From Pyrinomonadaceae bacterium (GTDB taxonomy: Bacteria > Acidobacteriota > Blastocatellia > Pyrinomonadales > Pyrinomonadaceae): 64,000 bases of DNA. This document shows positions 29,946 to 41,338 of the stretch, piece by piece. The notes below the pieces were generated by a model. That model saw only the letters and a program-made list of their open reading frames with translations, was not told the origin of the DNA and did no database searches. Position numbers and translations under genes: made by a program. The stretch spans positions 1-64,000 of the forward strand of contig JANWYH010000010.1 of the NCBI GenBank assembly GCA_025054715.1, in the 5' to 3' direction. How positions within the stretch are numbered: position 1 is the stretch's first letter; every line of letters begins with the position of its first letter.

Positions 29946-30770
29946 ATGAAGGAGACTCATACAATTAGCGAGGCATTATCCAATCTAATCAAAAATCCAT
30001 CTCAGATTATCCGTAATTGGAATTACAAAGGTGCTATTTTAAGCGGCATGCTTCGAGCGCCAATTTTTTTTGTAACTTATGTAGTTGGAAAAGAAAGTAT
30101 CCGAGTGGCACTCGGAGCCGCAGCCATTCAGTTCGTTTTTCGATTTTTTTATGCAGGCATCAGCGGTTCCTTAGTTCAAAACTTTCGCCGAGTAGAACCA
30201 CCTTGGAAAGCTCTCGCAGCAATACTTTTAATCATTCCATTCTTTAGTCACGGATTAGAATTTCTATTCCAGAGTATATTTGCTCACTTGACGGCTACGC
30301 ACCAACACACTGACGAAGCTATAATTCGTTCAATTTGTGTAACCGTAATCTCCGCTCTTTTTACACTTTTTGTAATGCGACGTGGCGTTATGATAGTTGG
30401 CGAAGCTGAAAGCAAGCCACTTAAAACCGACATTTCGCATTTACCGAGACTCATTTTCGAATTTTGCGCTTTTATTCCAAACGAAATCGCTTCAATGCTA
30501 CGCCGCGGAGCTTTGCTCGCCGCCTTTTTGAGTTTTACTGGTTTCGGCGTCTTTTCACAAATGCTTGTGTGGGCAATTACGGAAAAGTCTTTTTGGACGT
30601 ATAGTGGTGGCAAGCAAATCCCTTTGCTGAAATATTGGGGCGTCGATGCCGTGATTTTACTATTTTTCTCAACTGCTATTTCGCTTGCAATACCACCAAG
30701 AAGCCGTCGCATTAAATTGACAAAAAACTATGAAATAATTTCAGTCGAAGAATTAAAGACTGCAGAATGA
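29946..30770 (+). CDS. Polytopic membrane protein of unknown function
   Basis: A 274-residue membrane protein with about six hydrophobic helices (for example SGMLRAPIFFVTYVVG, LAAILLIIPFFSHGLEFLF, VITVISALFTLFVM-like) and positively charged loops, which I do not recognise. No enzyme motif is obvious. It follows the GT4 gene by 46 bases with its own ATG and may belong to the same unit. Its last 43 bases overlap the end of the convergent GT4 gene on the other strand. Confidence 0.7.
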   Translation: MKETHTISEALSNLIKNPSQIIRNWNYKGAILSGMLRAPIFFVTYVVGKESIRVALGAAAIQFVFRFFYAGISGSLVQNFRRVEPPWKALAAILLIIPFFSHGLEFLFQSIFAHLTATHQHTDEAIIRSICVTVISALFTLFVMRRGVMIVGEAESKPLKTDISHLPRLIFEFCAFIPNEIASMLRRGALLAAFLSFTGFGVFSQMLVWAITEKSFWTYSGGKQIPLLKYWGVDAVILLFFSTAISLAIPPRSRRIKLTKNYEIISVEELKTAE

Positions 30771-32047
30771 TTCGACAAGAATTCTTGATACATCCTGTCA
30801 TAGGTTTGAAAAAGTCTCTCTATTGCTTTTTCTTTTGAATTTTCCTGTGCTGTTTTGATAGCGTTCTCTATCCGCTTTCTTCTTAAAGGGCTATCTTCCA
30901 ACGCCTCTTGCGTAGCTTTTGCAAAAGCTTCAGGCGTCGGTTTAACGAGCCAAGCATTATCTTGACTTGCATAGGTTAACACTCCACCCGAGTTTGGCAC
31001 AACTACTGCACAACCAGAAGCCATCGCTTCAAGCACAACGTTCCCGAAAGGCTCGCGCGGATTCGGATGAATGAAAACATCAACATTTGCGTAATAATTT
31101 GCAAGTGTTTCTTTGTCAAGGTGACCCAACAAAACGATCCTGCCGGAAAGTCTTCTAGCCTCCTCCTCAAGCCACCCCTTTTCAGGTCCAGCACCAGCTA
31201 CTAAAAGTTTAAAATCCATTTCTTTTGGAAGACACTCTACTATCTTTGGTAACAAACTTATATTTTTTTCCGGTGAGATTCTGGTTGAAGAAAAAAGAAG
31301 CTTCGTATTTGAAGACAGGCCAGCAAGAATCTTACGCCTAAATTCTTGCGATTTTCTCGAAGGTGAAAACAGATTCGTATCAACTCCGCGCGGGCAGATC
31401 GCCACGCGTTCCTCAAAATTTTTTGGTGAAGAGTTAAAAAACTTCCAGCAAAACTCAAAAAATTTCTGGGAGCGACGAGGATTATGTTCGGCAATCACTG
31501 ATTCAAAAAGCTCTTCAGCAACAAAAGGAGAATTCGCAATGAAAAAATCAAACATAGCAAGATTATAGTTTCCCATCAAGCGACGAGAGAACCACTTGCC
31601 AAGTTTTCCTCCGCAAACGAAAGAGCTAAAAATTGTGTCAAATCTTTCTCCAGTAAAATAAACTAGCATTGGACGTCCTAACTTTTTGAAGTAGCCCTTA
31701 CGAATTACTCCCGCAAGCAAAGTCAAAGCATAGTTATCGTATATCTCGATCATTTCAGGTTTTTCTGCGAGCAAGATCTCACGAATCGGTGAGCCGTTTC
31801 TTAAGTAATGAAAAGGAAGCATCAGCCGATAACGACGGTCAAAAAAAGGAGCTGGTTTTGCACTAACATAATAGATCTTCCCGTAGCTTCCCACTCTTTC
31901 TACCTTATTTTCTGCCCCCGGCACTATCAAACTTACATATCGCCTATGTTTGTTTGCTTCTAGTAAGAGACTATCGTAATTTGATTTAACGCCGCCAGAA
32001 GCTTCATGATAGTAGTTCGTTATGTGAACGGAGCGCATTACTTTCAT
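30728..32047 (-). CDS. Glycosyltransferase family 4, paralogue A
   Basis: A 439-residue GT4 enzyme. Clear motifs are the N-terminal VHITNYYHEASGGVKSNYDS, SSTRISPEKN with the donor site, and the ExxxxxxxE in EPFGNVVLEAMASGC. It is a close paralogue of the divergent gene at 32128-33450: both start with VH(I/L)TNYYH, share RRILLEEKP- and PFFD-type stretches and FANV/YANVDVFIHPNP. The two start codons are 80 bases apart and point away from each other. The C-terminus overlaps the convergent membrane-protein gene by 43 bases. Confidence 0.88.
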   Translation of the reverse strand: MKVMRSVHITNYYHEASGGVKSNYDSLLLEANKHRRYVSLIVPGAENKVERVGSYGKIYYVSAKPAPFFDRRYRLMLPFHYLRNGSPIREILLAEKPEMIEIYDNYALTLLAGVIRKGYFKKLGRPMLVYFTGERFDTIFSSFVCGGKLGKWFSRRLMGNYNLAMFDFFIANSPFVAEELFESVIAEHNPRRSQKFFEFCWKFFNSSPKNFEERVAICPRGVDTNLFSPSRKSQEFRRKILAGLSSNTKLLFSSTRISPEKNISLLPKIVECLPKEMDFKLLVAGAGPEKGWLEEEARRLSGRIVLLGHLDKETLANYYANVDVFIHPNPREPFGNVVLEAMASGCAVVVPNSGGVLTYASQDNAWLVKPTPEAFAKATQEALEDSPLRRKRIENAIKTAQENSKEKAIERLFQTYDRMYQEFLSNHSAVFNSSTEIIS

Positions 32048-32127
32048 TTTCTGAAAGCCTTATATTATGAAACAAAATTCATATTTTGAAAAGCATTTCA
32101 ACAGTTTCTAAAATTAGAGTTTTAAGA

Positions 32128-33450
32128 ATGACCATAAAGACGGTCCATCTGACAAATTATTACCACAGCAATTCAGGTGGCGTTAGCACTAGCCTAAACA
32201 ACCTACTTAAAGCCGCCGAAAAGAAAAAAAGACCGATCAGTCTGATAGTGCCGGGCGAAAAAGATTCAGTTATAAGTTTCAACGAGTATGCAAAGATTTA
32301 CTACGTAAGGGCAATTCGCTCTCCCTTTTTCGACAGGAGTTACAGACTCATAATGCCTTGGAAATACACTTTCAAGAACAGCTCTGTTAGGCGGATTTTA
32401 TTAGAAGAAAAACCTGATCTCATAGAAGTTACCGACAAATACACGCTGATTTTTCTCGGCTTAATGATTCGCAAAGGATTCTTTTCAAGCTTAGGCCGTC
32501 CCATTCTAGTTCATTTTAGCGCTGAAAGAATGGACGATAACGTTGCAGTCTTTTTGACGAAAAAGGAAGTTGGCAAGAAATTCTCCAGAAACTATGTCGC
32601 AAACATTCTACTTCCCTTTTTCGACTTTCACATAGCTAATTCCGAATACACAGCCAGTGAGCTTTTCGAGGCTGAAGCAGAAGCATCAAAATGGCTGTTA
32701 AAAAAAACTGAACGCATATTTTCTACTCCCAAAATTCCATTAAAAGAAAGAGTCTTCATTTGCCCAAGAGGTGTTGACTTATCGCTATTTTCTATAACTA
32801 GGAAAAGTGAAGAAAAGAAACGCCAAATACTAAAACAATACGACTTGCCAACAGAAAGAAAACTGCTTTTCTATGCCGGAAGGCTTTCACCGGAAAAAAA
32901 CTTAGATCTTTTGTTAAAAACATTGAAAGCGCTTACCGAAAAAAACTTCACACTTTTAGTAGCAGGTTCAGGACCTAAAAGGAAATGGCTTGAAGAAGAA
33001 GCTAAAAAATTTGCTGATAAAAGCTTGATCCTAGTCGGACACCTCGATAAAGAGCGTCTAGCAGATTTCTATGCAAACGTAGATGTTTTTATTCATCCGA
33101 ATCCACATGAACCCTTCGGAAATACGGTGCTTGAAGCAATGGCTTCAGGCTGTCCAGTAGTCGCACCGAATTCAGGCGGAGTTCTAACTTATTCAAATCA
33201 AGATAACGCCTGGCTAGTCGAACCAACCCCTCAAGCTTTCTCAAATGTTATTGAAAAAATCTTCCAGAATGGAGAATTAAGAACATCAAAAATTAAAAAA
33301 GCACTTGAAACTGCAAAAGAAAATAGCTCGGAGAACGCCGTAAATCGTCTTCTTTCAACATACGAAAAGATCTATGAGACGTTTATCAAAAATCGCAACG
33401 CCTTCGAAGTTGCTAAGCTATTCTTAATGTGCTTTCACTTTTTAGTTTGA
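32128..33450 (+). CDS. Glycosyltransferase family 4, paralogue B
   Basis: A 440-residue GT4 enzyme, divergent partner of the gene at 30728-32047. It has VHLTNYYHSNSGGVSTSLNN at the N-terminus, AGRLSPEKNLDLLLK at the donor domain and EPFGNTVLEAMASGCPVVAP. Start: an in-frame TTG at 32086 would add 14 residues; the ATG at 32128 aligns with the paralogue's start and is preferred. The C-terminus carries a short hydrophobic tail (KLFLMCFHFLV). Donor sugar and acceptor are unknown. Confidence 0.88.
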   Translation: MTIKTVHLTNYYHSNSGGVSTSLNNLLKAAEKKKRPISLIVPGEKDSVISFNEYAKIYYVRAIRSPFFDRSYRLIMPWKYTFKNSSVRRILLEEKPDLIEVTDKYTLIFLGLMIRKGFFSSLGRPILVHFSAERMDDNVAVFLTKKEVGKKFSRNYVANILLPFFDFHIANSEYTASELFEAEAEASKWLLKKTERIFSTPKIPLKERVFICPRGVDLSLFSITRKSEEKKRQILKQYDLPTERKLLFYAGRLSPEKNLDLLLKTLKALTEKNFTLLVAGSGPKRKWLEEEAKKFADKSLILVGHLDKERLADFYANVDVFIHPNPHEPFGNTVLEAMASGCPVVAPNSGGVLTYSNQDNAWLVEPTPQAFSNVIEKIFQNGELRTSKIKKALETAKENSSENAVNRLLSTYEKIYETFIKNRNAFEVAKLFLMCFHFLV

Positions 33451-33926
33451 TACTTTACCTTAGTGAAAAATGCAGTTGCTACCAAAATCGAAGTTATGAT
33501 AAAAAGCTAATAAGCGCAGAAGGTTGAAACAGACTAACGGAATTTGTCGAAATGTATGTCTTTATTCAAAGGTTGTATGCTCGCATGAAGTATGCAAAAG
33601 ATTAAAGAGCTTTACTTTGCTGAAAAGCCTTAGTGGTAAGTCTGAGAAGCCCATAAGAAAGGAGAGAGGTTGATGGACAAAGGACAAAAACAGTGGCAAG
33701 TTGACAAGATAGCTCTTACCCTCTCTTGGGAAGTTTTTCAACGGAGATTCCTTTTTCCTAAAAATCGTAATGGTTGAAAGAAATTGGAATAAGAGATGGC
33801 AAACACTTCGTGCTTGTTACATAAGGCTAGCTTAAAATACCACTAGTCAGGGAAGGGTTAGCTTGAGAATGGCAGAATACAGATTGAACTAAAGTGTAGC
33901 AATTTTGCTCATTTTAATTAAAGAGT
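33451..33926 (+). other. 476-base intergenic region, possibly structured
   Basis: The longest gap in the window. It contains one short ORF (33673-33777) with a good ribosome-binding site, and complementary segments that could form competing helices: TAGTGGTA (33631-33638) with TACCACTA (33838-33845), AGCCTTA (33626-33632) with TAAGGCT (33822-33828), and GGTAAG (33635-33640) with CTTACC (33715-33720). AGAGAGG (33663-33669) can pair with CCTCTCT (33720-33726). A small hairpin AGCAA-TT-TTGCT sits near 33898. No tRNA, tmRNA, RNase P or SRP signature is recognisable. Confidence 0.45.
33673..33777 (+). CDS. Possible 34-residue small protein
   Basis: A 35-codon frame including stop, MDKGQKQWQVDKIALTLSWE and onward, ending in FPKNRNG. 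An excellent Shine-Dalgarno (AAAGGAGAGAGG) is placed about 8 bases before the ATG. No known domain; basic overall. It could be a true small protein, a leader peptide, or chance. Confidence 0.35.
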   Translation: MDKGQKQWQVDKIALTLSWEVFQRRFLFPKNRNG

Positions 33927-35438
33927 ATGAAAAAGATAGAGCGCAGACCGTTAGTAATAGTTGTAGTAGAAGGCTTAGGATACACAGACAAACAAGAAGG
34001 AAATGCCGTTGCTTTAGCACATATGCCTTACTACGACGAGATAAAAGCAAAATATCCTTTCACTTTGCTAGAAGCTTCTGGCGAAAGGGTCGGTTTACCA
34101 AAAGGTATGCCTGGCAACTCTCAAGTCGGATACATGAACATAGGTGCCGGAAGGGTCGTCAAGCCCTTAATTGTGAAAATAAAGGAAGCAATAGAAACAG
34201 GGAAGTTTTATGAAAATGAGGTTTTAAGTCAGGCCATGGAAAGATCGAAAAACTCCTCGTTACACCTTATAGGACTTTTAAGCGATGCAGAGATTCACTC
34301 CTCACAAGAAGTGTTATTTGCTCTTTTGAGAATGGCTAAAATGCGCGGTCTAGAAAATGTTTTTGTCCACGCTATTTTAGATGGAAAAGACGTTCCATTG
34401 CGAACAGCGGATATTTATGCAGAAGCCGTAGAAGTAAAAATGAACGAAATAGGCGTAGGGAAAATAGCTACCCTTTGTGGAAGATACTACGCAATGGACA
34501 AGGATGAAAATTGGGAACTCACGGCAAGAGCCTATACAATGCTAGTCCATGCCGAGGGCGAAAGAATGAAAGATGCTATCACAGCAATTCGTCGCTCTTT
34601 CTTACGAGGCATTTCGGATGAATATATCAGACCGATTGTTCTTGAGGATGAAGAGGGCAACCCAATCGCAACCATCAAAGATGGCGACGTTGTCATCCTC
34701 TTTAATCATCGTGGCGACCGAATGCGTCAGCTATTAAAAGCTCTCTCAAGTAAAGCACCTAATAAACCCGAAGCTTACATCGTCTGTCTAACTGAATACG
34801 AAGAAAGCTCTTCAGCTACTGTAGCTTTTCCTGCAGAATCTCATCGCAATACTTTAGCAGAAATCTTTTCGAGCTATAACTTGAAAAATTGTCGAATAGC
34901 TGAAGGAGAAAAGATACAGTGTGTTACTGAATGCTTTAACTTAGGCTTTAAGTCACAACTGGAAAGAAGCATTCAAATATCCGAAGTTAAAAATTACATC
35001 TTATCTCCTGAGACGGCGAGTTTTAAGATAACCGATGTTCTCTTTAAAAAAATTGAAGCCGATGAAGAAGACATCTTCATAGTTGATTTTTCAGCGCCTG
35101 ACAAGGTTAGCTATTCTGGAGACATAGAAAAAACTGTAGAATCGTTGCAATTTGTTGATACCTGCATTGGTTCGATCGTTGAGAGAACTCTCGAAGTCGG
35201 CGGAGTTGTTGTAATGACAAGCACTCATGGGCGTTGCGAAGAAATGATTGCCTCAAATGGCAGAAAAAGAAACTTAAATTCACTCAACAAGGTTCCATTT
35301 CACCTAATAGACAAGGAATCTACTCAAATTAAACTTAAAGAAGACGGAGCTTTGGAAGATGTTGCACCTACAATTTTGGAAATTTTGGGAATAGAAAAAC
35401 CCGAAGAAATGACCGGCAAAAGCCTGATAGAGAAATGA
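33927..35438 (+). CDS. Cofactor-independent phosphoglycerate mutase-like protein, metal ligands altered
   Basis: A 503-residue protein that aligns over its whole length with GpmI, the Mn2+-dependent enzyme that interconverts 3- and 2-phosphoglycerate. Substrate-site elements persist: catalytic Ser65 in GNSQVG, His124, DGKDV, GRYYAMDKD, the two Arg in HRGDR and Lys in EGEK. But of the seven metal ligands of the Bacillus enzyme, four differ: Asp12 is Glu15, His407 is Tyr396, Asp444 is Thr433 and His462 is Asn451, while Ser, Asp392 and His434 are kept. It may be inactive in the normal reaction or have a new role. Stop overlaps dacB start (ATGA at 35435). Confidence 0.85.
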   Translation: MKKIERRPLVIVVVEGLGYTDKQEGNAVALAHMPYYDEIKAKYPFTLLEASGERVGLPKGMPGNSQVGYMNIGAGRVVKPLIVKIKEAIETGKFYENEVLSQAMERSKNSSLHLIGLLSDAEIHSSQEVLFALLRMAKMRGLENVFVHAILDGKDVPLRTADIYAEAVEVKMNEIGVGKIATLCGRYYAMDKDENWELTARAYTMLVHAEGERMKDAITAIRRSFLRGISDEYIRPIVLEDEEGNPIATIKDGDVVILFNHRGDRMRQLLKALSSKAPNKPEAYIVCLTEYEESSSATVAFPAESHRNTLAEIFSSYNLKNCRIAEGEKIQCVTECFNLGFKSQLERSIQISEVKNYILSPETASFKITDVLFKKIEADEEDIFIVDFSAPDKVSYSGDIEKTVESLQFVDTCIGSIVERTLEVGGVVVMTSTHGRCEEMIASNGRKRNLNSLNKVPFHLIDKESTQIKLKEDGALEDVAPTILEILGIEKPEEMTGKSLIEK

Positions 35439-36922: not shown

Positions 36923-36951
36923 AGAGCAGGGACTTTACCCTGCTCTTTTTT
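36923..36951. terminator. Bidirectional rho-independent terminator
   Basis: A perfect 9-bp hairpin AGAGCAGGG/CCCTGCTCT with a 6-base loop, followed by a T-run on the plus strand and preceded by a few A residues. It separates dacB and the convergent amidohydrolase gene, whose stop lies just inside it. Confidence 0.88.
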
Positions 36952-38263
36952 ATCTTCTATCCTTGAATCTTTCGTAAAGCTCAGTATGCCTACTAGTTAA
37001 AGGCATTAAACGCCCATTGATGAAGAGGTATTTTATGTTTGTTCTTGGATCGAGTATGTCACCATCGGTTACTACAATGTTTGCAATTTTACCTACTTCG
37101 ATTGAGCCTAGACGGTCGGCTATGCCAAGAATTTGAGCAGGATAAAGTGTTACCGCCTTTAGTGCTTCTTCCTTCGGCAGGCCAAAGGCTACGGCCATGC
37201 CCGCTTGATAAGGCAAGTCTCTTACGTTTGCTCCGCCGTCACTAGTTGCTATAGCAAAGCGAATGCCAGCCTGAAGCATCTTTGACGGAGCTTCAAAAAG
37301 GTAGTCGTAAGGGTCGTCTTCTCTTACAGGAAGCCTGAAAATGTTTGTGTAGATAACAGGCACATTCTTCAACACATCTGCGGCTCTCCAAGCTTCCTGT
37401 CCGCCTAAAATTATTCCCTTAAGCTTAAATTCTTCAATGAATTTAACAGCAGCTCTAATATCGCGTTCTCGCTCGGCGGTGAAAATCACAGGACGTTCAG
37501 CACGAACATAAGGAATCAAAGCCTCCAGCTTTACATCAGTTTTGGGAGCTGGCAGTGTCTTGTCTTTAATGTAAGCTTCTTTTGCTCTTGCATAGTTTCC
37601 AGCATCTTTGAAAATTCTCTTTAAGTTTTCAAGCTGCTGATCTCTTCGACGAATTGCCTCATTAAAATCCATTTGTTGTTGACCGAAATCACTGCCAAAA
37701 GCAGCAACTCTCGGAAAATTAACTACTAGTGCAAAGGTTGGGACAACGGCCATCTGGGCTTGCGTTGAACCCCACAAGTTTATAACTGCAGCTTGACCTG
37801 AAATGAGTCCGCCTGTTGGCATAGAAAGAACGGTCGTAACGCCATTTATCCTAGCAACGTTCACATGCGAAGAATGTGGATTGATTCCAACTATAGCCTT
37901 AGCATTTGCATTATTATCGCCAACTTCTGAAACATCAACCGTTCCGTTAGCACCCAAGGGAATCTCGACAAGTCCCAAGGTGGTCGCAGCATCGATCATT
38001 CCAGGATACACGAAAAGCCCTCTTGCATTTATTACTTCTGCTTTTGAAGGAATTGAAACGTTTTGACCTACAGCCGCAATTTTACCATTTTCTATAATGA
38101 CGACACCGTTTTCAATAATACCGCCCGACACGGTTACTATGGTTGCTCCAGTTATTGCAAATGTGCCACTTTTACCGAGAAGGTTCTGCTGTGAGCCGTC
38201 GCTTTGAGCGAAGACGTTAAGAACGAAGAGAAAAAGAGCGGTCAAAAGAAGAGCTTTCCTCAT
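36950..38263 (-). CDS. Amidohydrolase-family exported protein, lacks HxH (paralogue 3)
   Basis: A 437-residue exported protein (signal peptide ending VFAQ) with the amidohydrolase beta-sandwich and barrel: VINARGLFVYPGMID then DAATTLG (residues 91-97) where active family members have a HxH metal pair. The late ATSDGG Asp and the C-terminal LGSIEVGKIANIVV sheet remain. Without HxH a normal two-metal hydrolase is unlikely. It overlaps paralogue 2 by 4 bases (ATGA). Possibly a scaffold or partner of paralogue 2; inference only. Confidence 0.8.
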   Translation of the reverse strand: MRKALLLTALFLFVLNVFAQSDGSQQNLLGKSGTFAITGATIVTVSGGIIENGVVIIENGKIAAVGQNVSIPSKAEVINARGLFVYPGMIDAATTLGLVEIPLGANGTVDVSEVGDNNANAKAIVGINPHSSHVNVARINGVTTVLSMPTGGLISGQAAVINLWGSTQAQMAVVPTFALVVNFPRVAAFGSDFGQQQMDFNEAIRRRDQQLENLKRIFKDAGNYARAKEAYIKDKTLPAPKTDVKLEALIPYVRAERPVIFTAERERDIRAAVKFIEEFKLKGIILGGQEAWRAADVLKNVPVIYTNIFRLPVREDDPYDYLFEAPSKMLQAGIRFAIATSDGGANVRDLPYQAGMAVAFGLPKEEALKAVTLYPAQILGIADRLGSIEVGKIANIVVTDGDILDPRTNIKYLFINGRLMPLTSRHTELYERFKDRR

Positions 38264-39675
38264 TTTTCTTCACCTCCGTCTTCATCGCTTAGATAAGGCA
38301 TTCCGTCAGCATCATCATGATGATCTTTTCTAAATTCTGAAGGAATACGCGGTTGAGTTCCGCCACTTGCAGGTGGTTTATTGATGTCAAGTTTTTCAAG
38401 TTCCTGACGTTCTTTTTCAAGTTCGGCTCTTTTTGCAATGTCTTGTTGCCGGTCGAAATAAATCTCACCTTCTATCATCGTAGTTTCAACTCGCGAATAT
38501 GGACTGAAAGGATGCCCGCTCCATATAACAATATCCGCATCTTTTCCCACTTCGATAGACCCGGTGCGTTTGTCAATCCCGAGCTGCTTTGCAGGATTTA
38601 AGGTTATCATTTTCAAGGCTTCTTCTTCAGGAACACCACCATATTTCATGACTTTTGCTGCTTCTATGTTCAATCGTCGCATCCTCTCGTCAGAGTCAGA
38701 ATTTATTGATACCAAGACACCGTTTTTCCAAAGTATCGCTGCATTGTAAGGAATCGAATCGTAAGCTTCAATCTTAAAGGACCAATTATCAACAAATATG
38801 GAAACACCTGCACCGTGTTTTGCAATTTCGGGTGCAATTTTGTAAGCCTCGAGTGCATGTTGTAGAGTGCCTACTCTAAAGCCGAATTCTTCAGCAAGAA
38901 GCATCAAATTAAGGTGCTCATCAGAACGATAACCATGAGCGTGAACGAGTCGCTTTCCCTCTAAAACCTCAACCAGCGGTTCAAGCTCGAGATCTACTCG
39001 CGGCGGAACCCTTGTTTTCCCTGCCCTATAGTCGTCCCATTCGCGTTTGTAATCTCTCGCTCGAAGAAAAGCATCACGAATAACTTCCATTACACCCATC
39101 CTCGTTCGAGGATAACGAGGAGTTTGTCCAGGTAAAGGTTGAAAGTTTGAGCGCTTCGGATTTTCACCAAGAGCAAATTTAATACCCGGAGGAGCATCCG
39201 GAATTATAAACTCTTCAACTGGTCTTCCATATTTGAATTTAACTGTTACCGACTGCCCGCCAATGGCGTTAGCCGAACCATGAAGCAAAAGAGCTGAGGT
39301 AACCCCGCCGGCAAGCGCTCGATAAATCGCTATATCCTTCGGATCAAGAACATCAAGAATTCGAGTCATCGAGGTCACCGAGTAAGAGAACTCGTTAACA
39401 GCATCAATCATAGTATGCGAATGACAGTCAACTATCCCGGGAGTTACGTATTTTCCGGTTGCATCAATCACGCGCGCATTAGCACCGGCTCTTAAGTTTT
39501 TTCCAATTCTAGCTATCTTACCGTTCTCAATTAGAATGTCAGCATTTTCTAGAGTTCCTCTGGATGCAGTCATCACAGTTGCATTTTTTATCAAAACTTG
39601 ATTACTAGCTTGAGCCAGCACAAACGAAGGAAGAAGAAAATTCAAAACAACTAGACATGCGAATACTCTTCTCAT
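38260..39675 (-). CDS. Exported amidohydrolase with intact metal site (paralogue 2)
   Basis: A 471-residue exported amidohydrolase (signal peptide to VLAQ) of the imidazolonepropionase-like group. HSH at residues 85-87 follows YVTPGIVDC; later metal His candidates lie in VHAHGYRS and LQHALEAY, and an Asp in NSDSDE. All four to five ligands appear present. Substrate unknown; related proteins cleave cyclic amides or peptides. The tail is acidic with Asp/His residues. It overlaps the following paralogue 3 and follows paralogue 1 by 13 bases, so the three form one operon. Confidence 0.88.
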   Translation of the reverse strand: MRRVFACLVVLNFLLPSFVLAQASNQVLIKNATVMTASRGTLENADILIENGKIARIGKNLRAGANARVIDATGKYVTPGIVDCHSHTMIDAVNEFSYSVTSMTRILDVLDPKDIAIYRALAGGVTSALLLHGSANAIGGQSVTVKFKYGRPVEEFIIPDAPPGIKFALGENPKRSNFQPLPGQTPRYPRTRMGVMEVIRDAFLRARDYKREWDDYRAGKTRVPPRVDLELEPLVEVLEGKRLVHAHGYRSDEHLNLMLLAEEFGFRVGTLQHALEAYKIAPEIAKHGAGVSIFVDNWSFKIEAYDSIPYNAAILWKNGVLVSINSDSDERMRRLNIEAAKVMKYGGVPEEEALKMITLNPAKQLGIDKRTGSIEVGKDADIVIWSGHPFSPYSRVETTMIEGEIYFDRQQDIAKRAELEKERQELEKLDINKPPASGGTQPRIPSEFRKDHHDDADGMPYLSDEDGGEEK

Positions 39676-39688
39676 ATTTCCTCACCTC

Positions 39689-41338
39689 TTACTGGTTTTG
39701 CGGTGTTCTAGTTCCTGAAAATGAGAACGTACCTTGTTGCGACTGAATTGAACCGCTCATCTGATTACCGGTTACTTTACCAGTAACGGTTACTTCGACT
39801 TGATTACCACCGAAGTTTATGTCAAGCAGAAAACTAAACCCATCCGCCGTTACCTTGCCCTCTTTTATGTTTGTGGTTCCAGTAACGGCTGTTTGTAATG
39901 TGCCTGATAAAGTGTTACCTTGCTGATTCAGATTCAAGGTTGCAGGTAAAGACTGTCCCATAGCTTCTATTGTCAGATTCCAAACCCCTGTTAAATTTAC
40001 ATTTGTGCTAGTAGCAGTTTGATTGCTCCTATCTTCTCGCTGCTTTATCTCGAATAACTTACCGTCAACAAAAGTGTGTGTAAACACACGATCCTTTGCA
40101 AAAAGATCGCCTCTTACCAAGACAAGGTTTGCTATTTTACCTGTTTCAATCGAGCCAAGTCGATCAGAAACACCTAGAATTTCAGCAGCACCAAGAGTTA
40201 GTGCTTTTATTGCTGCCTCTTTGCTTAATCCGTTTTCGATGGCTCGGTTAAGATTTGTCCATATCTCGGCGTAGTTTTGAATGCCACCGGATTGGAAAGC
40301 AAAACGAACACCTGCTTTTTCTAATCTTCCGGCACATTTTAGAGTTTCAACCCTAAAACGCAGGGTTTCTAATCTTTCTGGATCGGCTTCCTCCGAAGCT
40401 ATGGCCGTACGTTTCGGAAAATTTAATGAAAGCAGAACTGGAACATTCTGAGCTTTTAACCTGTCAGCCACCTTCCATGCCTCTTGCCCTCCTGCAATTA
40501 TTGCCTTTATGTTAAACTCCTTTGCTAAATTCAACGCCCGAATGATCTCTGTCTCCGTATTTGCATTGAAAATAACAGGCATTTTTCCTTCAAGAATTGG
40601 AAAGAGAGCCTCTAAAGATCTGTCGCTTTCCGGTCTTTTTATGCCGCGTGGATTAGCTTCATATATTTTTTTCCACTCTTGAAGCCTTTTTGCGTCTAGG
40701 AACATCTGTCTTAGAGCCGAGAATGTCCCAAGAAGCGAAGTAGGATAAACTCCGCCGGAAAGCGTGCGAAATGTAATATGCTGCGCGAAAGGCGATTTTA
40801 CTATCATCGCAGACACGGTCTCACCCGCAAGATTGATGATTGCCGATTGTCCGTTGAAAATTCCTTCTCGCTGAACCGTAACCGCAGTGGTAAAGCCATT
40901 ATTTCTTTGAGTTTCAAATTGGCTGTCTCCCGCCCGAAGCTGTTCGACAATGTCAATTTCGGGACGAAGCCCGACAGGATAGTTAGAAGTCGAAGATACC
41001 TGTTGCTGAGCCGATGCTTGCTGAATTAAAAGCGTGGGCGAGCTTGGCGTTGGGCTAGGCGATGGACGCGCTGCCAAACCAAAAGAACTGTTTGTATCAA
41101 AAAAGCCCGGATACACAGTCAAACCTTTGCCCTCGATTATAACAGCGTCCGCAGGCACTTTTACATTCTCACCGACCGCCTCAATCAGACCGCCACGAAT
41201 CACGATTGTTCCCCGTTCAATTGTAGCGCCAGACACCGTAAAAACTTTGGCGTCTCTAATTGCGTAAACACCCGTCTGTGCTTTGCTTTGAAGAACAAAA
41301 CATATCAGAACACAAAGAAGAAAATTCACTTTTCTCAT
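39689..41338 (-). CDS. Amidohydrolase-family exported protein with C-terminal beta domain (paralogue 1)
   Basis: A 549-residue exported protein, first gene of the amidohydrolase trio. After the signal peptide (ending SKAQ) the barrel follows, with DTNSSFG (residues 81-87) in the position of HxH; no metal His pair is visible. The canonical LGSIETGKIANLVLV sheet is kept. The last ~95 residues form an added beta-rich domain (from LTGVWNLTIEAMGQ to FSFSGTRTPQNQ) rich in Gly/Thr repeats. Most likely non-catalytic; the added domain may bind a partner or ligand. Confidence 0.8.
   Translation of the reverse strand: MRKVNFLLCVLICFVLQSKAQTGVYAIRDAKVFTVSGATIERGTIVIRGGLIEAVGENVKVPADAVIIEGKGLTVYPGFFDTNSSFGLAARPSPSPTPSSPTLLIQQASAQQQVSSTSNYPVGLRPEIDIVEQLRAGDSQFETQRNNGFTTAVTVQREGIFNGQSAIINLAGETVSAMIVKSPFAQHITFRTLSGGVYPTSLLGTFSALRQMFLDAKRLQEWKKIYEANPRGIKRPESDRSLEALFPILEGKMPVIFNANTETEIIRALNLAKEFNIKAIIAGGQEAWKVADRLKAQNVPVLLSLNFPKRTAIASEEADPERLETLRFRVETLKCAGRLEKAGVRFAFQSGGIQNYAEIWTNLNRAIENGLSKEAAIKALTLGAAEILGVSDRLGSIETGKIANLVLVRGDLFAKDRVFTHTFVDGKLFEIKQREDRSNQTATSTNVNLTGVWNLTIEAMGQSLPATLNLNQQGNTLSGTLQTAVTGTTNIKEGKVTADGFSFLLDINFGGNQVEVTVTGKVTGNQMSGSIQSQQGTFSFSGTRTPQNQ

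Follow-up and report, generated by a model that had tools for sequence, protein, structure and literature searches.

As a rule, structured leaders of mRNAs are of ancient origin and belong to a single pathway, and among the dispersed intergenic repeats are mobile promoters, REPINs and similar elements, some of which lie upstream of genes. Unlike mobile promoters and REPINs, the element described here has as its selected feature an RNA fold at a fixed spacing from the start codon. Many copies per genome, mostly placed just before the start codons of unrelated genes, are a property it shares with the TAACTGA repeats of marine Beggiatoaceae, for which the published account proposes post-transcriptional control and gives no known spreading mechanism. 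The latter are described there as short unstructured direct repeats overlapping the ribosome-binding site (PMC4679880), whereas the present element is a covarying pseudoknot of approx. 100 nt with the ribosome-binding site after it. A conserved RNA fold is also found in riboswitch-type or protein-bound translational leaders such as serC and SAM-II of alpha-proteobacteria; in the serC leader, the start codon follows the final hairpin by at most 11 nt. As described, these leaders belong to homologous genes of many species (PMC1273637), in contrast to 13 unrelated genes of one species here. Finally, the STAXI motif is likewise a repeated pseudoknot RNA of unknown function, but it forms tandem arrays near DNA-handling genes according to its description (PMC2864571), whereas single dispersed copies before start codons are seen in our case.

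The locus under study belongs to a genome of 2.45 Mb (G000; 23 contigs, 99% complete), and the window, i.e., the whole stretch of DNA analysed, comprises 64,000 nt of it. From the stop codon of a glycosyltransferase gene (33450) to the start codon of the iPGM/GpmI gene (33927) there are 476 nt, and the gap which the original prediction had placed before a GpmI-like gene (33451-33926) is real. A regulatory leader, a small RNA or a small-protein gene had been suggested for it. Of these, the leader fits, as there are 12 paralogues of the element, its fold covaries and its position relative to start codons is fixed, while the other two found no support. It had further been claimed that segment 33626-33640 (AGCCTTAGTGGTAAG) has three mutually exclusive pairing partners. 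Parts of this segment are indeed perfectly complementary to 33715-33720, 33822-33828 and 33838-33845, but at a frequency expected by chance: in 300/300 dinucleotide-preserving shuffles of the gap, some 15-mer has three or more partners of this kind, and the observed maximum of five partners is matched by 247 of the 300. The three competing helices were rejected on these grounds. They also differ from the conserved helices described below; two of the partner segments overlap the core strands of S2 and S3, yet pair elsewhere there. Folding of the whole gap was no better than that of shuffled sequences on either strand (z of 0.98 on the plus and −0.22 on the minus strand). Rfam 15 gave no match in the window at the gathering threshold, and permissive Rfam searches with the window copy and the copies L005, L026 and L038 yielded nothing near threshold within the element.

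Concerning the neighborhood, two similar glycosyltransferase genes, judged paralogues by eye, are arranged divergently and back to back (30728-32047 on the minus and 32086-33450 on the plus strand, the latter with GT4 Pfam matches), and three similar amidohydrolase-like genes, named by eye, lie in a row at 36950-41338 on the minus strand.

A family of copies before start codons

A blastn search of G000 using the gap as query returned two further similar places, of which one lies precisely in the groES-groEL gap, and a search with this groES-groEL copy led to ten copies including that of the window. Covariance models of the 3′ core detected 12 (R1) or 13 copies (R2 and R3). Based on sequence comparison, we conclude that the window's own genome contains a family of 13 structured RNA copies, that of the window included. 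The window copy reaches 82.5 bits with R3 (E 1.4e-18 in the window) as a member of the training set of this model; its kinship to other copies had been found earlier by sequence alone. Pairwise identity in the alignment of the 13 copies (A3) ranges from 41 to 95%, and the pair L005/L007 is 93-96% identical. The 5′ domain is variable, with sequence conservation in 10/13 copies; L010 and L011 also share about 110-120 nt further upstream.

Some details of individual copies may bear on their history. L009 and L011 have a near-identical 3′ part and a differing 5′ part, a mosaic which looks like recombination or gene conversion among copies. Positions 33587-33622 of the window resemble the end of groES at L005 (2765-2800), with a score higher than that of any of 200 shuffles (one of 45 pairs tested); the groES-groEL junction is a possible, unproven source of the window copy. 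By eye, the word GGTTGARR recurs upstream of the AAAAGCC block, at a distance of roughly 28-100 nt, in the window copy, L004, L007, L010 and L011, and could mark a promoter or the 5′ end of the element.

The position of the element relative to the next gene is fixed, as is typical for cis-acting structured leaders: the end of hairpin S5 is found 10-22 nt before a same-strand start codon in 13/13 copies, and a G-rich Shine-Dalgarno-like box is located between the two in 12 of them. The 13 downstream genes (Table 1) are unrelated and have no obvious common function. Oxygen or redox chemistry is touched by several of them. A same-strand gene lies upstream in 11/13 copies, several of these being in clear operons (groES-groEL, cox3-cox4, CO-dehydrogenase subunits), and the remaining L010 and L038 are placed behind divergent genes. 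Since its upstream gene is divergent, L038 is, judged from gene order, a true 5′ leader. A TTGACA-N17-TAACTT sequence was noticed by eye just upstream of L038.

Table 1. Features of the window around the element, and genes downstream of the 13 copies in G000.
Feature	Position in window	Strand	Description
Intergenic region	33451..33926	+	GT4 glycosyltransferase gene to iPGM gene; houses the element
5′ domain of element	33623..33785	+	starts AAAAGCCTTAG; helices without statistical support
34-codon ORF	33673..33777 (with stop)	+	after AAGGAG box; coding signal absent
3′ core of element	33797..33922	+	matched by covariance model R3
S2, 5′ strand	33825..33832	+	partner 33856-33863; 8/8 pairs, some G-U
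S3, 5′ strand	33840..33844	+	CCACT in window copy, CCGCC in 11/13 copies; 3/5 pairs left
S4, 5′ strand	33846..33851	+	crosses S2; 4/6 pairs left in window copy
S2, 3′ strand	33856..33863	+	partner 33825-33832
S3, 3′ strand	33871..33875	+	GGCAG in window copy, GGCGG in 11/13 copies
S4, 3′ strand	33884..33888	+	partner of 33846..33851
S5 hairpin	33890..33916	+	directly 3′ of S4; 7/8 pairs; ends 10 nt before iPGM start codon
Spacer	33917..33926	+	weak Shine-Dalgarno-like AAAGAG before ATG 33927; stronger in the other 12 copies
BPG-independent phosphoglycerate mutase (iPGM) gene	33927..35438	+	downstream of element; PF06415, PF01676
Window copy			downstream: iPGM
L004			downstream: TlpA/AhpC-TSA-like
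L005			downstream: GroEL (named by eye from sequence); copy between groES and groEL
L007			downstream: 82-aa ORF before NAD kinase (NAD kinase named by eye)
L008			downstream: metallo-beta-lactamase/rhodanese
L009			downstream: cox subunit IV
L010			downstream: 67-aa membrane protein
L011			downstream: amino acid permease
L012			downstream: CO-dehydrogenase-type FAD subunit
L013			downstream: Fe/Mn SOD
L026			downstream: LysM
L027			downstream: glucose/sorbosone dehydrogenase
L038			downstream: TM2

Crossing helices of the 3′ core

The core of approx. 100 nt comprises two helices that cross, S2 and S4, the near-invariant helix S3 (CCGCC/GGCGG) and hairpin S5. Together with an upstream hairpin, S1, these are the helices supported in A3, in which 95.6% of 453 cells are paired. 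Changes on both sides occur in 21/36 pairs, compared to a mean of 6.9 in shuffled alignments (none of 500 reached 21) and to 2 to 7 in slid controls. Of the five helices, S1, S2 and S5 had guided the fitting of the alignment, and S3 and S4 had not. For the first 12 copies, this count gave 15/36 pairs versus 4.6 in shuffles. Thus, a covarying RNA fold, as expected for a cis-acting structured leader, is established at the level of the alignment.

In most copies, the four strands of S2 and S4 are alike, and two nested hairpins could also form there. Crossing pairing has 96.6% of cells paired and 11/14 pairs covarying, a result reached by 0/500 shuffles, whereas the nested alternative has 84.5% of cells paired and 3/13 pairs covarying, which was matched in 189/500 shuffles. 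The nested form was rejected, with the diverged copies being decisive: in L026 and L038, the stem letters are largely different in S2 and S5 (for L038 also in S4), and nearly all pairs are kept. Helix S3 is intact in 11/13 copies, the exceptions being L027 and the copy in the window; it does not covary, its variation consisting of G-U changes or loss only. On this alignment, the case for S3 is one of conservation and complementarity, not of covariation. S2, S3 and S4 mutually cross and represent either one complex pseudoknot or alternative states; they may thus not form at the same time. For the 5′ domain, a CTG..CAG hairpin, an AAGG-UAGC-CCUU hairpin and a pairing of CCUUAG with CUGAGG were tried as well, but since their covariation was not above that of shuffles, no helix is claimed there.

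Parts of the fold are broken in L027 and in the window copy, and the latter is among the two most worn of the family. S2 and S5 are kept at 8/8 and 7/8 pairs, respectively. As just 3/5 pairs of S3 and 4/6 of S4 are left, activity of the window copy is doubtful; it may be losing its function and be weak or inactive.

Distribution among relatives

In G001, a genome of the same genus (97% complete), no match was obtained with R1, R2, R3 or blastn. The gap between groES and groEL measures 348 nt in G000 and 24 nt in G001, and that between cox3 and cox4 435 nt in G000 compared to a 1-nt overlap in G001. Absence of the element from these two orthologous junctions of G001 is evident from the sequences. 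The flanks of both empty sites have diverged too far for target-site duplications to be recognised; the iPGM gene of G001 sits in another context. Relative to G001, the element is an addition at groES-groEL and cox3-cox4, and loss in G001 is the less likely event at operon junctions as tight as these. G000 has a second groES-groEL pair, without a long insert (C11:86740-87619).

Searches with R1 were negative in 144 other relatives and in 395 further genomes of the phylum, using strict filters which recovered only 8 copies of the own genome and by which diverged copies could be missed. With looser filters, R2 and R3 gave only weak matches in 39 other genomes (three for R2, E 0.16-0.68, and two for R3, E 0.53-0.87); on inspection, the three R2 matches looked unrelated. 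In 162 genomes of the class, a pattern of the core matched 11 times in G000 (control 0) and 17 times elsewhere, spread over 15 of the remaining 161 genomes (7 matches with the reversed pattern as control); none of these 17 matched R3. None of the seven matches of a pattern scan of GTDB contigs matched R1, and the sole weak R3 match among them, in Vibrio ordalii (13.5 bits), is antisense in a coding gene and was discarded. Viral contigs had no matches with two patterns, nor did plasmids and phages in a blastn search with one copy (L010), and a literature search found no description of the element. The original prediction was to fall if the region had neither a transcript nor conservation. Judged from these searches, the family is conserved inside the genome, but it was not found in the relatives searched: nothing convincing came up in the class and the phylum, in GTDB contigs or among viral, plasmid and phage sequences.

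A proposed leader acting on translation and its alternatives

As the best explanation, we consider it fairly probable that a diverged copy of a multi-copy leader RNA, specific to this lineage, lies in the gap and acts in cis on translation of the downstream gene. In the mRNA, S2 and S4 would form a pseudoknot, and S3 pairing would tie the S2 and S4 loops together, either within a single compact fold or in an alternative state. Hairpin S5, adjoining S4, would end shortly upstream of the ribosome-binding site, at a distance of a few nucleotides, and the element would set or switch translation initiation of the next gene, both in operons and in single-gene leaders; a protein, a ligand, temperature or nothing at all might act as trigger. 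Translation initiation is suggested by the placement of S5 beside the ribosome-binding site, which is the same at genes that are unrelated. Masking of the Shine-Dalgarno sequence is inconsistent, with mean unpaired probabilities of 0.35-0.65 in 12 copies (non-pseudoknot folding), so that folding does not decide between a repressing and a promoting role. Metabolite riboswitches belong to one pathway, usually in many species, whereas the genes here are unrelated and the element was not found in relatives; a one-genome family is unlike typical riboswitches. Further, the window region contains no GC-rich hairpin with a U run as in intrinsic terminators or attenuators, S5 being followed by the Shine-Dalgarno region, not by U's.

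The main rival is an mRNA stabiliser or processing element, in which the pseudoknot stops an RNase J-type 5′-3′ exoribonuclease or directs processing, with the consequence that more of the downstream than of the upstream cistron is kept. The 11/13 copies with a same-strand upstream gene, several in clear operons, would suit this, and there is a precedent in a compact viral pseudoknot reported to have stopped bacterial RNase J1 in vitro (PMC5760640). However, protection against 5′-3′ decay does not need the tight spacing of 10-22 nt to the start codon, and the positions of L010 and L038 behind divergent genes also argue against it; overall, we regard this explanation as unlikely. A lower probability still is given to the second rival, a non-autonomous mobile element that uses the fold of its RNA or single strand for its own movement and whose copies survive only where they are harmless, i.e., in sense orientation before start codons. 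Such an element would agree with the absence from relatives, the dispersal of the 13 copies, their gain at two junctions that are conserved, the high identity of L005 and L007 and the sharing of only the 3′ part by L009 and L011. Nevertheless, terminal inverted repeats spanning the element, as in MITEs or IS derivatives, are absent in the three copies window, L009 and L010, no intact mother element was seen, and a sense orientation of 13/13 copies with a fixed 3′ spacing is hard to obtain by neutral insertion; moreover, among the copies with an intact core, L026 and L038 have diverged furthest from the main group, and they keep nearly all pairs. A small-protein gene or a trans-acting small RNA is very improbable: the predicted 34-codon ORF and its good Shine-Dalgarno box do exist, and several copies are similar in frame 0, but changes are spread flatly over codon positions 1, 2 and 3 (329:305:351 for pairs of ten copies in a shared frame, the pairs not being independent), the frame is broken in L008, L009 and L013, ORFs of element copies have no match in Pfam or NCBIfam, and neither terminator-like sites nor sigma-70-like promoters were found in the window region.

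Returning to a leader acting on translation, the copies would have been gained in the lineage before unrelated genes, with the native spacer being replaced each time. In a bolder form, which we put forward as a tentative possibility, the element would be a transplantable module of translation initiation, i.e., a self-contained pseudoknot leader, its hairpin set at a constant distance from the ribosome-binding site that follows, copied before at least 13 unrelated genes with replacement of their spacers, creating a new RNA regulon in one lineage. RNA families confined to one genome escape cross-species searches; here, paralogues within the genome supplied the covariation. If the proposed reading is true, the birth and spread of an RNA regulon would be observable in a single lineage.
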